The notes under the pieces were generated by a model, which saw only the letters and a program-made list of their open reading frames with translations, ran no database searches and had not been told where the DNA came from. Positions 716 through 58,870 of a stretch of 64,000 nucleotides of DNA are shown one piece after another. The position numbers and the translations under genes were made by a program. Position 1 is the first letter of the stretch. Each line of letters opens with the position of its first letter. This stretch comes from Halorubrum sp. CBA1229 (GTDB taxonomy: Archaea; Halobacteriota; Halobacteria; Halobacteriales; Haloferacaceae): the NCBI RefSeq assembly GCF_003721435.2, contig NZ_CP054585.1, positions 558,001 to 622,000 on the forward strand. The letters run 5' to 3'.

Positions 716-1897
716 TCAGGCGTCCCGAAACGTCAGCTCGTCGCGGAGCGCTCGGGCCCGCGAGAGCAGCGCGTCGCGGTCGACGTCACCGTCAGCGGTC
801 GCGTCGTCGCTTCCGACTGTCGCCGTCAGGTGCCCCATCTTCCGGAGCGGGCGCGCGTCGTCTTTCCCGTACCAGTGGAGGTCGGCGTCGGGCGCGGCGA
901 GGACGGCGTCGACCCCGCGGAGCGTCGCCGGCTCGGTCTCGTCCACGTCGCCCAGGACGTTGGCCGTGACCGCGGGCGCGACGAGGTCGGTCGGGCCGAG
1001 CGGCCAGCCGAGCACGGCCCGGACGTGGTTCTCGAACTGCGACGTGCGCGCGCCCTCGATCGTCCAGTGGCCGGAGTTGTGGGGGCGGGGCGCGATCTCG
1101 TTAACCAAGACCTCGCCCTCGCGGGTCTCGAACAGCTCGATCCCGTAGACGCCGCGGCCGTCGAGGAACTCCAACACGTCGCGGGCGACCGACTCCGCCT
1201 CGGCGACGACCGCGTCGTCGGCCCGGGCCGGGGCGACGCTCTCTCGGAGGATCTCCTCTCGGTGGATCGTCTCCGTGACCGGGTAGGTCCGCGTCTCGCC
1301 GTCTGCCCCCTTCAGGCCCATCACGGCGATCTCGCGCTCGAAGTCGAGGAGCTCCTCGGCCATCGCGTTCCCGCCGACCTCGTCGAGCGCGTCGGCGGCG
1401 TCGGCGGGGTTCTCGACGGGGACGTTCCCGCGGCCGTCGTAGCCGCCCTCGCGGGCCTTCAGCATGACGCCCCCGAACTCCTCGACGACGCGTTCGAGCC
1501 CCTCGGCGGTCGCGACTGCGACGAACTCCGGGACGGGGATGCCGGCGTCGGCGAGCGCCTCCTTCTGCACCAGCTTGTCCTGGATCGTCTCGAGGGTGCC
1601 GGGGTCCGGCTGCACCGGCACGTCGTGCTCCGCGCTCGCCACGGCCAGCAGCTCCGGATCGGCCAGCTCGATCTCGAAGGTCAGCGCGTCGACGCGGCTC
1701 GCCAGCTCGTGGACCGCGTCGGGGTCGTCGAAGTCCCCGACGATCTGGTCGCTCACGACGGGAGCGGCCGGGCAGTCCGGCGTCGGGTCGAGCACGACGA
1801 CCTCGACGCCGAGCCGCGCGACCGCCTCGCCTATCATCCGGCCCAGCTGTCCGCCGCCGACGACGCCGAGCGTCGGTCCCGGCAGAGTGATCGACAT
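716..1897 (-). CDS. purK: 5-(carboxyamino)imidazole ribonucleotide synthase PurK
   Basis: PurK (393 aa) is an ATP-grasp ligase that carboxylates aminoimidazole ribonucleotide with bicarbonate and ATP. The N-terminal nucleotide-binding motif is GVVGGGQLGRMIGEA. The ATP-grasp core includes KAREGGYDGRGN and, near the C-terminal third, the metal-binding segment NEIAPRPHNSGHWTIEG. The frame stays open 50 codons further upstream, but the ATG at 1897 is preferred: it begins directly before the conserved beta strand, and a TATA-like TATTTAT near 1925 is placed for a nearly leaderless transcript. It is the first gene of the purK-purE pair. Confidence 0.96.
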   Translation of the reverse strand: MSITLPGPTLGVVGGGQLGRMIGEAVARLGVEVVVLDPTPDCPAAPVVSDQIVGDFDDPDAVHELASRVDALTFEIELADPELLAVASAEHDVPVQPDPGTLETIQDKLVQKEALADAGIPVPEFVAVATAEGLERVVEEFGGVMLKAREGGYDGRGNVPVENPADAADALDEVGGNAMAEELLDFEREIAVMGLKGADGETRTYPVTETIHREEILRESVAPARADDAVVAEAESVARDVLEFLDGRGVYGIELFETREGEVLVNEIAPRPHNSGHWTIEGARTSQFENHVRAVLGWPLGPTDLVAPAVTANVLGDVDETEPATLRGVDAVLAAPDADLHWYGKDDARPLRKMGHLTATVGSDDATADGDVDRDALLSRARALRDELTFRDA

Positions 1898-1921
1898 GCG
1901 CGGCCGTACCCGACGTTGCTG

Positions 1922-1929
1922 CATAAATA
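1922..1929 (-). promoter_or_regulatory. TATA-like box of purK-purE
   Basis: On the minus strand the sequence reads ATATTTATG about 25-30 bp before the purK ATG, the haloarchaeal TATA spacing for a transcript with almost no leader. A second similar box (CTATTTATCC, near 1945-1952) lies 20 bp further upstream and could serve an alternative start. Confidence 0.5.
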
Positions 1930-2050
1930 TTCCCACATGGCACGGATAAATAGCCATGTTCGTGGATATGCCGTGCTGCGCTGTCGAGATTCCTCTCCCC
2001 CTAGATACGTTACGGTACGACCAAATACTTCTGAGCGACGGCGACACTCA

Positions 2051-2431
2051 TTTATAAATCCCGCCGCGGTGGCGCGTGCCTCCGAGTGGCCGCCCTTGGC
2101 GGCCACGAGGAGCGCGCGCGAGGGACGCCGCGAGCGCAGCGAGCGGCGAGGCTGGGGAGGTGTGAGGTGCGGTTGCTGTGCGGTCGGGGAGGCCTCAAAG
2201 GGGCAGTCGCGAGGGCGACGCACGGCGACGCAAGGACCGCAGGGAGGGAGCGAAGCGACTGACCGAGGACCGCAGCGAGCCGCGCGAGTCCTCGCGACTG
2301 GGGCTTTGGAGGTGTTCACCGGCGATCCGTTTGTAGTCGCATATGACCGAGCGGCTGGGGCTTTAGAGGCCTCACCGCGGTATCGTCAATCACACATAAA
2401 CAGCCGACGGGAACACCGCTTTTTATATAAA
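2051..2431 (-). repeat. Dispersed repeat, long copy A (TTTATAAA-bounded)
   Basis: A roughly 380-bp intergenic block bounded by TTTATAAAT at 2051 and TTTTATATAAA near 2421. On the minus strand it carries two CTCCAAAGCCCCAG-type boxes (2298-2312 and 2355-2369), then a GC-rich stretch, then CCCCTTTGAG and CTCCCCAGCCTCG, ending GCGCCACCGCGG next to the terminal TTTATAAA. The same order appears at 58516-58870, and the two-box part recurs at 24656-24775. The minus strand holds an open frame starting at 2319 (MNTSKAPVARTRA...), discussed under findings. I see no other gene between purK and the gene ending at 2562. Confidence 0.8.
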
Positions 2432-9652: not shown

Positions 9653-10741
9653 CGCGTTGTAGTCTGCGTGCGGTGAGTATCCGCACTTGAGACACGCAAA
9701 CACGTCCTGTCCGTTCGAGGTAGGGCGGTTGTCCTCGTGAGTGAACCCGCACTTCGAACACCGCTGACTCGTGTACGCAGGACTTACTTGTTCGACCGAG
9801 ATGCCGACGACTTCGGCTTTGTACTCGACGTACTCGAACAAGCGTCGGAACGCCCATGCGTGGAACTTCTTGGCGTTCGGCATCCGATCACGAATTCCCG
9901 TCAGGTTCTCGAATACGATCACGTCACAGTCGTGTTCGACGGCTTCTGCAACGAGTTCTTTCGAGACGGTGTGCAAGAAATGGTCGTAGCGTCCCGTCTC
10001 AGTCCGTCCAACCGACTGGATGGTTTCGTGAGCGGCCCGTGTCCCACGCTGTTGGAGCGATCCGCGTCGCTTCTCAAACTCGCGGTGCCAATGATTCAGC
10101 TCCGAGCCGTTCCAGAATGTCCCCGTTGACGTGACAGCGACGTTTTCGATGCCGAGGTCAACGCCGAGGACTGTGCTGTGCTCGGCGTTGCCTTCGTCGG
10201 CAGTCTCGAACTCCATGTCCGCCTTTGTGCGGACGTGAAGGTAGAACTCACCGTCGCGGTAGTGGAGTTCTGCACCCGTCACGTCGTAGTCGTCGTTGAA
10301 CAAATACTCCGAGTGAGGCGTCTCGCGGTCCTCGTCGGGGAGAATGTATCTAGCGGTGATACGTCCTTCAACGGTCGAAAGCGTCGCGTGGTCGTCGTTG
10401 AACGTGGCACACCGTTTGTCGTAGACGAGCGTCGGAGCGGAGAAGCGCGGCTTTCCCGCGTAGTCGCCCTGTTTCCAGCGGGCGACGACGCTCTGGACAG
10501 CGTCAGCAGCCTTGTTGCGGGCGTTCTGGACGAGGTTCGCTTGAAGTCGCGTCTCGGCTCGCACGTCGTCGTAGGTCTCGCGTTGGAGTTGGGCTTTGCT
10601 CGTGGTCTTGTACTCGCCTTGCCACGCGTGGTCGACGACGTAGTTGGCGGCCCACAGGAACTCGGAGATGGTTTCGCGGAGAAGGGCAGCGTCGCTGTCG
10701 GCCACGTCGAGTTTGACGGGGACCGTGCGACGTACCTCCAT
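9614..10741 (-). CDS. tnpB: RNA-guided endonuclease TnpB, C-terminus disrupted
   Basis: A 375-aa TnpB of the IS1341 type. The RuvC-like site is complete: [12 protein letters not shown] (Asp I), [10 protein letters not shown] (Glu II) and the zinc finger CSKCG...CLKCG followed by HADYNA (Asp III). The family normally continues after DYNA with AKNIGL and a variable tail of about 60 residues. Here a 52-bp insert changes the frame, adds [12 protein letters not shown] and stops at 9614; the normal tail persists downstream in another frame, down to 9406. Catalysis may survive because all three acids precede the break. The 3' coding part also feeds the guide RNA, so the insert may affect that as well. 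Confidence 0.88.
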
Positions 10742-24655: not shown

Positions 24656-24775
24656 TTATTTATAAATAGTACCCGCTGGAACGGCAGCGAACGCCTCCAA
24701 AGCCCCAGCCACTCGGCTAGACGTGACTGGTACCGGATCGCCGGCGAACACCGCCAAAGCCCCAGCCTCGCGGTC
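24656..24775 (+). repeat. Dispersed repeat, truncated copy B
   Basis: Begins TTATTTATAAATAG and contains two boxes, CCTCCAAAGCCCCAG (24694-24708) and GCCAAAGCCCCAG (24753-24765). They are separated by CACTCGG...GGATCGCCGGCGAACACC, which aligns over about 80 bp with the reverse complement of copy A (2298-2369). The GC-rich body of the long copies is missing. The rest of the 24606-24969 spacer shows no gene. Confidence 0.75.
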
Positions 24776-24969
24776 GCCGATTGCGACCGCTCGGCGGCGC
24801 GCCGCCGCTTCAGTGTCGTAGTCGACCACCGACGCCAGACTCGCGAATCGAGCGCCCGAAGCGGGGTCGAAGCGTCGATATCTCCGCGCCTCTAGCTCGG
24901 TCGGCCCGTCCCCCTCGACGCCCCCGACTCGTAGCCTTTTTACCCGCGCTGGCGGTAGACGGACTCACT

Positions 24970-45845: not shown

Positions 45846-46550
45846 ATGCGACTCAAACCCGTCCCCGACCCCCCGGCCGCCGTCGACGACCTCCGCGAGC
45901 TCCAGCGGGCGGTGCCGCTCGTGCCCGGACGCACCGACGACTGCTGCGCCCGCCTCCGCGACCGGTGTGACCTCCCCGACCGGCAGGTCGCGAACGACTG
46001 GCTCGCGTTCCTCCGCGCGCTCGGGCTCGTCCGAGAGACGTCGCGGGGGTTCGTCAGAACCGACGCCGAGCCGACCCCCGAACTGGTCCGCGAGGGGCTC
46101 CGCGAGGAGGTCCTGCTCGTGCCGGAGGCGCTCGCGGCCCTCGGGGCGGCGACGCCCGAGGACCCGCTCACGCCCGACGGGCTGTTCGAGGCGACCCGCG
46201 GGTCGGTCCCGCGGCACGACCGCGCCCGCGACCCGGAGTGGGAGGCGACGTGGCGCGACCGGGCGGCCCGGCTGTTGGCGTGGCTCGCGCTCGTCGACCT
46301 CGCGGAACGGGTCGAGCGGGAAGGGGACGACGACCGGGAGCGGGACGACGACCGGGAGCGGGACGACGACCGGGAGCGGGACGACGACCGGGAGCGGGAC
46401 GACGACCGGGAGCGGGACGACGACCGGGAGCGGGACGACGACCGGGAGCGGGACGACGACCGGGAGCGGGGCGACGACCGAGAGCGGGACGGCGCCCGAA
46501 CCGGCGAGCCCGCCTACGTCGCCGGCGACGCGGCCGGAACGACGGACTGA
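45846..46550 (+). CDS. Uncharacterised winged-helix-like protein with DDDRER repeat tail
   Basis: A 234-aa protein. The first 155 residues are a helical, perhaps winged-helix, domain (VANDWLAFLRALGLVRETSRGFVRT) of unknown role, located 22 bp after mch. The tail holds eight copies of the hexapeptide DDDRER followed by GDDRER, strongly charged and probably disordered or helical. The repeat is nearly identical at the DNA level (18-bp units), so its length may vary between strains. Confidence 0.8.
   Translation: MRLKPVPDPPAAVDDLRELQRAVPLVPGRTDDCCARLRDRCDLPDRQVANDWLAFLRALGLVRETSRGFVRTDAEPTPELVREGLREEVLLVPEALAALGAATPEDPLTPDGLFEATRGSVPRHDRARDPEWEATWRDRAARLLAWLALVDLAERVEREGDDDRERDDDRERDDDRERDDDRERDDDRERDDDRERDDDRERDDDRERGDDRERDGARTGEPAYVAGDAAGTTD
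46326..46487 (+). repeat. 18-bp in-frame minisatellite, 9 units
   Basis: GACGACGACCGGGAGCGG occurs eight times exactly, from 46326 on, followed by a ninth variant unit (46470-46487). It keeps the reading frame of the gene it lies in. Confidence 0.95.
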
Positions 46551-58515: not shown

Positions 58516-58870
58516 TTTATAAATCCAGTACGGTGTTGCGTCGGCTGCTACTGGCGCGGGGCCGCCTCATCATTTATGAATCATCGATGACGCGGTGGAC
58601 ACCTCCAAAGCCCCAGCCGCGAGGGCTCGCGCGACTCGCTGCGCTCCTCGCTCGCTCGTTTCACTCGCTCTCTGCGGTGCTTACGTCGTCGTGCTTCGCC
58701 CTCGCAGCTGCCCCTTTGAGTCCCACCCCGCACGGCACCGCAGCCTCACGCCTCCCCAGCCTCGTCGGTGGTCCTCCGCTTCGCTCCGGACCACCGACTC
58801 CCTCGCGCGGGCGGTTCGCGCCGCTTCGCGGCGCTCACCGGCGCACGCCACCGCGGTCTATTTATAAATA
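58516..58870 (+). repeat. Dispersed repeat, long copy C (TTTATAAA-bounded)
   Basis: A roughly 355-bp intergenic block bounded by TTTATAAAT (58516) and ATTTATAAATAG (58860). On the plus strand it holds CTCCAAAGCCCCAGCC (58603-58618), the body CGCGACTCGCTGCGCTCCTCG, CCCCTTTGAG and CTCCCCAGCCTCG, and ends GCCACCGCGGTCTATTTATAAA. The order equals that of copy A in reverse. A frame from 58595 (MDTSKAPAARARAT...) matches the one in copy A over about 88 residues with a one-codon gap. No other gene is seen in the 440-bp spacer. Confidence 0.82.

Follow-up and report, generated by a model that had tools for sequence, protein, structure and literature searches.

A dispersed hairpin repeat of haloarchaea as the probable source of an open frame shared by two copies in Halorubrum sp. 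CBA1229

An intergenic repeat of Halorubrum sp. CBA1229 consists of hairpin modules and conserved linkers, occurs in many copies, and occupies a given site in some species but not in others. Its stems evolve by matched substitutions and by the exchange of whole hairpins. The element is probably a dispersed foldback repeat of the class Halobacteria that is non-coding and lacks a transposase; an open frame first noticed in two of its copies is incidental. A false gene is thereby removed, and an apparently undescribed repeat family of a whole archaeal class is brought out. In addition, paired arms that diverge beyond their flanks, together with swapped modules, provide a clean natural test of stem covariation at the DNA level, which is relevant because covariation usually counts as proof of functional RNA.

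Structure, copy number and placement

The element is an intergenic repeat of ~300 bp with three hairpins and tandem right-end units of ~57 bp. On its G-rich strand the order is a TTTATAAAT box, hairpin 3, hairpin 2, the linker GAGGCTGGGGAGG and a G-rich spacer, followed by hairpin 1, bounded by CAAAGGGG and GGGGCTTTG, and then by the right-end units, which number one to five per copy at a spacing of mostly 57 bp. This strand is the plus strand for copy A and the minus strand for copy C of the window, i.e. the whole stretch of 64,000 nucleotides that was analysed (Table 1). TTTATAAAT-type boxes flank most copies, and the place of hairpin 2 is taken by many unrelated but self-complementary stems, according to folds of individual copies. 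The third copy in the window, copy B, is truncated, and its orthologous site in genome G004 is without the element.

Table 1. Positions in the window of the parts of three copies and of the two open frames
Feature	Position	Strand	Remark
Copy A, TTTATAAAT box	2050..2059	.	left element boundary; TATA-like palindrome
Copy A, hairpin 3 (G-rich strand)	2071..2119	+	single-copy fold
Copy A, hairpin 2	2126..2148	+	
Copy A, conserved linker GAGGCTGGGGAGG	2148..2160	+	'TPPQPR' on opposite strand; near-invariant alignment columns
Copy A, hairpin 1, class-wide core, CAAAGGGG-[arm]...[arm]-GGGGCTTTG	2196..2308	+	match 2194-2314, 127 bits
Copy A, two right-end units, each starting CTGGGGCTTT, at 2298 and 2355	2298..2411	+	57-bp period
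Copy A, spurious open frame	1834..2319	-	161 codons; refuted as gene
Copy B, truncated: two right-end units and hairpin 3 remnant	24658..24830	-	without hairpins 1 and 2
Copy C, spurious open frame	58595..58867	+	90 codons
Copy C, hairpin 1 (core)	58606..58718	-	match 58600-58720, 128 bits
Copy C, conserved linker GAGGCTGGGGAGG	58751..58763	-	
Copy C (L091), hairpin 2	58764..58798	-	
Copy C, hairpin 3	58806..58850	-	
Copy C, TTTATAAAT box	58860..58869	.	at 3' end of aroD-like gene

A search with copy A as query gave 49 matches in its own genome, and the motif CTGGGGCTTTGGAGGNG with up to two mismatches occurs 176 times, versus six for the reversed control. A covariance model of the core found 96 matches, all on contig 1, the chromosome. 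None of the 96 lies on contig 2, the second replicon (0.36 Mb, 10% of the genome), a distribution with a chance of ~3e-5 and odd for a simple mobile repeat. Neighbouring genes were called by a simple codon model, which placed 93 copies between two genes; these pairs were convergent in 31 cases, tandem in 48 and divergent in 14. Since only 9 of 69 gene pairs in the window are convergent, the element favours the 3' ends of genes.

The shared open frame

The earlier note had asked whether a frame conserved between two copies of a repeat was a hidden gene or a by-product of GC bias. The repeat is real and copies A and C share the frame, but the genome holds ~96 copies of the element and not two. 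Both frames are open from a GTG triplet, that of copy A beginning V/M-N-T-S-K-A-P-V-A-R-T-R-A and that of copy C V/M-D-T-S-K-A-P-A-A-R-A-R-A, and both contain CPFE, LTPPQPRR and RATA/HATA, as had been observed. An end of the copy A frame at 2051 was an error; the frame stays open to 1834, running out of the repeat and entering the purK leader. In copy C, the stop codon falls within the TTTATAAAT box. The common residues correspond to landmarks of the DNA: TSKAP is translated CACCTCCAAAGCCCCAG, CPFE is translated TGCCCCTTTGAG, (L)TPPQPR is translated CACCTCCCCAGCCTC, and RATA/HATA is the translated foot of hairpin 3. The peptide therefore owes its conservation to conserved DNA, translated from the linkers and from the feet of the hairpins in a structured repeat.

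For a coding test, 95 distinct copies were gathered from the same genome through searches and targeted stretches, and the 62 complete ones were used for frame analysis. All three landmarks lie in one phase in only five of the 62, all nine phase combinations are found, and frameshifts are frequent, with a landmark spacing of 107 in 21 copies and 108 in 20. GTG stands as the start triplet in 32. Substitutions at codon positions 1, 2 and 3 number 3330, 3425 and 2076, so that position 3 is the least variable, the opposite of what coding sequences show. In the proposed frame, 0.218 of the changes are synonymous against 0.288 expected, and the other two frames of the same strand score higher (0.389 and 0.362). 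The proposed frame is open in 45 copies; the other frames are open in 34 and 13 on the same strand and in 21, 1 and 28 on the opposite strand. Among mononucleotide shuffles of 270 bases at this composition, 36% stay open. The open frame is thus not unusual at this composition, while the repeat itself is certainly beyond chance. Searches of Pfam and NCBIfam with both peptides gave noise only.

A translated gene for a small basic protein is hardly credible on these data. The openness of the frame in most complete copies and the residues common to copies A and C speak for it, but the frameshifts, the poorly conserved start triplet, the reversed codon-position pattern and the openness of other frames speak against it. 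We rejected a protein-coding gene since the frame is not kept among copies and changes are not concentrated at codon position 3; the hidden gene was thereby refuted by the very observations that the earlier note had named as decisive. That the frame is common to copies A and C is a coincidence. A by-product of GC bias was nearer the truth but incomplete, as the peptide stretches are conserved DNA linkers and hairpin feet.

Pairing and covariation of the arms

In hairpin 1 (69 copies), 19 of the 29 pairs show double changes that preserve pairing, with 1931 Watson-Crick cells versus 52 mismatched ones, and the hairpin 3 consensus (57 copies) has compensatory changes in 10 of 14 pairs. Such compensatory base changes in helices are expected of a structured RNA family. 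For an arm analysis beyond the genus, we extracted 117 core units, which carry 93 distinct 8-nt arms. Pairing is kept in 1113 of their 1170 arm cells (95%), versus a mean of 472 (40%) after random exchange of arms between units, and each of the ten arm positions shows all four Watson-Crick types.

The wobble pairs differ between the genus and the class. On the G-rich strand of the own-genome copies of hairpin 1, there are 36 G-U versus 7 A-C cells, mostly at one position. In the 117 units outside the genus, G-U and A-C are equal (14 versus 14), whereas in 27 tRNAs of the same genome, taken as a control, the acceptor and T stems have 313 Watson-Crick, 11 G-U and no A-C pairs. Assignment of an RNA strand through wobble pairs, which looked decisive within the genus, was gone class-wide and was dropped as proof of RNA. 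Because the class-wide equality is unlike the tRNAs, the comparison points to pairing that would be kept mainly at the DNA level and not as in an ordinary RNA, with which RNA would still be compatible. The window had no Rfam match at the gathering score, and searches with other copies up to E 1 gave sub-threshold matches only, bar one tRNA.

Evolution at orthologous sites

At the purK and aroD sites, species of the same genus have the element, lack it, or have it inverted (L155). In L155, at the purK site, the element is reversed in orientation together with flanking TTTATAAA boxes. Over 400 kb compared with G004, whose aligned DNA is ~90% identical, 12 sites are common to both genomes, five are occupied only in Halorubrum sp. 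CBA1229 and four only in G004. Aligned empty sites display the presence/absence variation itself and no sharp junction, and no target duplication, transposase or excision was demonstrated for the element.

Copies shared with G004 are mosaics, in which one hairpin is 100% identical and its neighbours are replaced. At site 681657, hairpin 1 is identical over ~140 bp and hairpins 2 and 3 are replaced; at site 616748, hairpin 3 is identical and the remainder is replaced. At site 882663, five arm pairs carry matched changes around a nearly unchanged interior. The arms at orthologous sites show 194 matched double changes, 79 one-sided changes and 7 unpaired doubles in 83 comparisons that are not independent of each other. 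Matched arm changes also occur at the f7 site, where a single core unit is common to eight genomes of six genera in one family, and at other sites, with flanks ~80-95% identical. The f7 genomes are L262, L265, L267, L269, L289, L337, L342 and L344, and their arms have changed in a matched way. By eye, the f7 flanking genes resemble cobalamin biosynthesis genes; they are encoded opposite to the G-rich strand, whereas the genes flanking another site run along it. The orientation of the element to transcription therefore varies.

The copies of the foldback repeat would spread and be homogenised at the DNA level through recombination between copies via the conserved linkers, with a trans-acting enzyme on the single-stranded hairpin as a possible further actor. 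Arm complementarity may be kept since pairing is needed, or because one arm corrects the other by template switching. Counting against a foldback repeat, the f7 copy keeps the same place in all its genomes, a pattern closer to retention for a function than to an element that roams, and the own-genome copies have the G-U excess on the G-rich strand, though few columns carry it. We suggest, tentatively, a class-wide element in which, at one and the same chromosomal site, hypervariable arms nearly always remain complementary. If this is true, either an unknown mechanism repeatedly recopies one arm from its partner, or a hairpin within a G-quadruplex loop is under diversifying selection.

Distribution

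Of 194 genomes sampled from the class Halobacteria, 151 matched the core model. Copy number ranges from 5 to 89 in 15 genomes searched more deeply, and from 1 to about 96 overall. Outside the genus many units are solitary, or stand head-to-head about a short spacer. With regard to a possible MITE, units paired in this way give inverted ends in other genera; no parent transposon or target duplication was found. GTDB contigs with the string GGGYGGGACTGAAAGGGGC were all halobacterial among the at least 80 matches listed, while the string was found in none of 2.9 million viral contigs. A phage search with the element gave no match, and the plasmid collection gave weak matches only, in Halobaculum and Halorussus. 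No description of the repeat was found in searches of open-access literature.

Comparison with known repeats and alternative explanations

The REP/BIME elements of bacteria are palindromic repeats of intergenic DNA that occur in tens to hundreds of copies, frequently close to the 3' ends of genes; REPs have a conserved stem sequence and a RAYT partner. The present element is likewise intergenic, palindromic and multi-copy, but its stem sequence is free. The double-hairpin elements of Allomyces mitochondria have compensatory stems. According to PMC7218506 and PMC7813641, which cite Paquin et al. 2000, they appear optional between relatives and are regarded as mobile. They resemble the present element as short hairpin elements optional between relatives, and differ in being organellar and much shorter; the small insertions within our hairpins are closer to them than the whole element is. 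The ~58 bp intergenic repeats with AT motifs of the Halorubrum virus HF2, which are promoters in the virus genome (PMC8707807), were set aside; the unit size is similar, but the conserved motifs differ and the element matches no phage.

The nearest described kind is the PATE and SMR repeats of Haloquadratum walsbyi (PMC3119063). Like PATE/SMR-A, the present element is haloarchaeal, transposase-free, palindromic, heterogeneous and in many copies, with small repeats within palindromes and repeats switched or inverted at one position. Unlike them, it has no seen link to IS605-type genes, is found across the class, and is multi-hairpin and modular, with tandem right-end units and hypervariable complementary arms. 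By analogy it may work like a PATE, i.e. a non-autonomous derivative of an IS605-type transposon mobilised single-stranded by TnpA. Palindromes in an element too short for a transposase, the absence of coding capacity, the many heterogeneous copies, the extra repeats inserted in hairpins and the opposite orientations at one site, all traits described for the Haloquadratum repeats, would fit. An actual PATE is nevertheless unlikely: a strong hairpin 1 match was found at only 2 of 30 TnpB loci, whose transposon termini were not defined, the own-genome match lies ~1.2 kb off the TnpB gene and not at its end, G070 has 89 copies without TnpB, and the ends of the element are not established. An IS605 end was thus unsupported near TnpB, and the element was not filed as a PATE. 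The window has a TnpB-like (PF07282) match at ~9653-9850 on the minus strand (G000:C1:567653).

A family of structured non-coding RNAs that is transcribed from the G-rich strand, folds into the hairpins and functions at the RNA level seems to us rather unlikely. The strong and repeated covariation, the conserved unpaired motifs, the G-U excess on one strand within the genus and the retention at orthologous sites favour such a family. It is opposed by the class-wide balance of G-U and A-C, by the variable orientation to neighbouring genes, by a central spacer of head-to-head units that at ~25-45 bp sometimes leaves scant promoter space, and by the lack of an Rfam match. The G-tracts suggest a putative quadruplex with a hairpin loop, and a chromosomal element could act as such a DNA structure, a hairpin-capped quadruplex of the form GGG-N-GGG-ACTGAAA-GGGG-[hairpin]-GGGG, in chromosome folding, transcription boundaries or replication. 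In Haloferax volcanii, quadruplexes are reported to have been predicted across the genome and predicted sequences to have been folded in vitro (PMC12873603). A G-tract pair lies upstream of the core in 94 of the 117 class units and downstream, as a control, in none, both hairpin feet carry GGGG on the same strand, the element is confined to the main chromosome, and its intergenic regions are often convergent. We still judge a quadruplex element distinctly unlikely, given that copy number swings so widely between genomes and that some related species lack the element at a given site with no obvious replacement.

Additional modules and repeats

Several smaller units accompany the repeat. Insertions of ~50 bp in hairpin 2 or its foot (L013, L097, L116, L063, L109, L119) consist of two hairpins linked by TGGCAG or TTGCA, whose stems vary between copies and remain complementary; one in an own copy near 526363 is missing from the G004 ortholog. 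A compound hairpin module of ~80 bp (GGAAGACG..CTTCC..CGGGACCG) sits inserted in the linker joining hairpins 1 and 2 (L062, L075, L099, L100, L106). Many copies (e.g. L153-L161) are flanked to the left and right by TTTATAAA-like boxes that recur at intervals of ~35-57 bp. In the window, positions 46277-46528 hold an 18-bp tandem repeat (CGACCGGGAGCGGGACGA) with ~10 copies in register.
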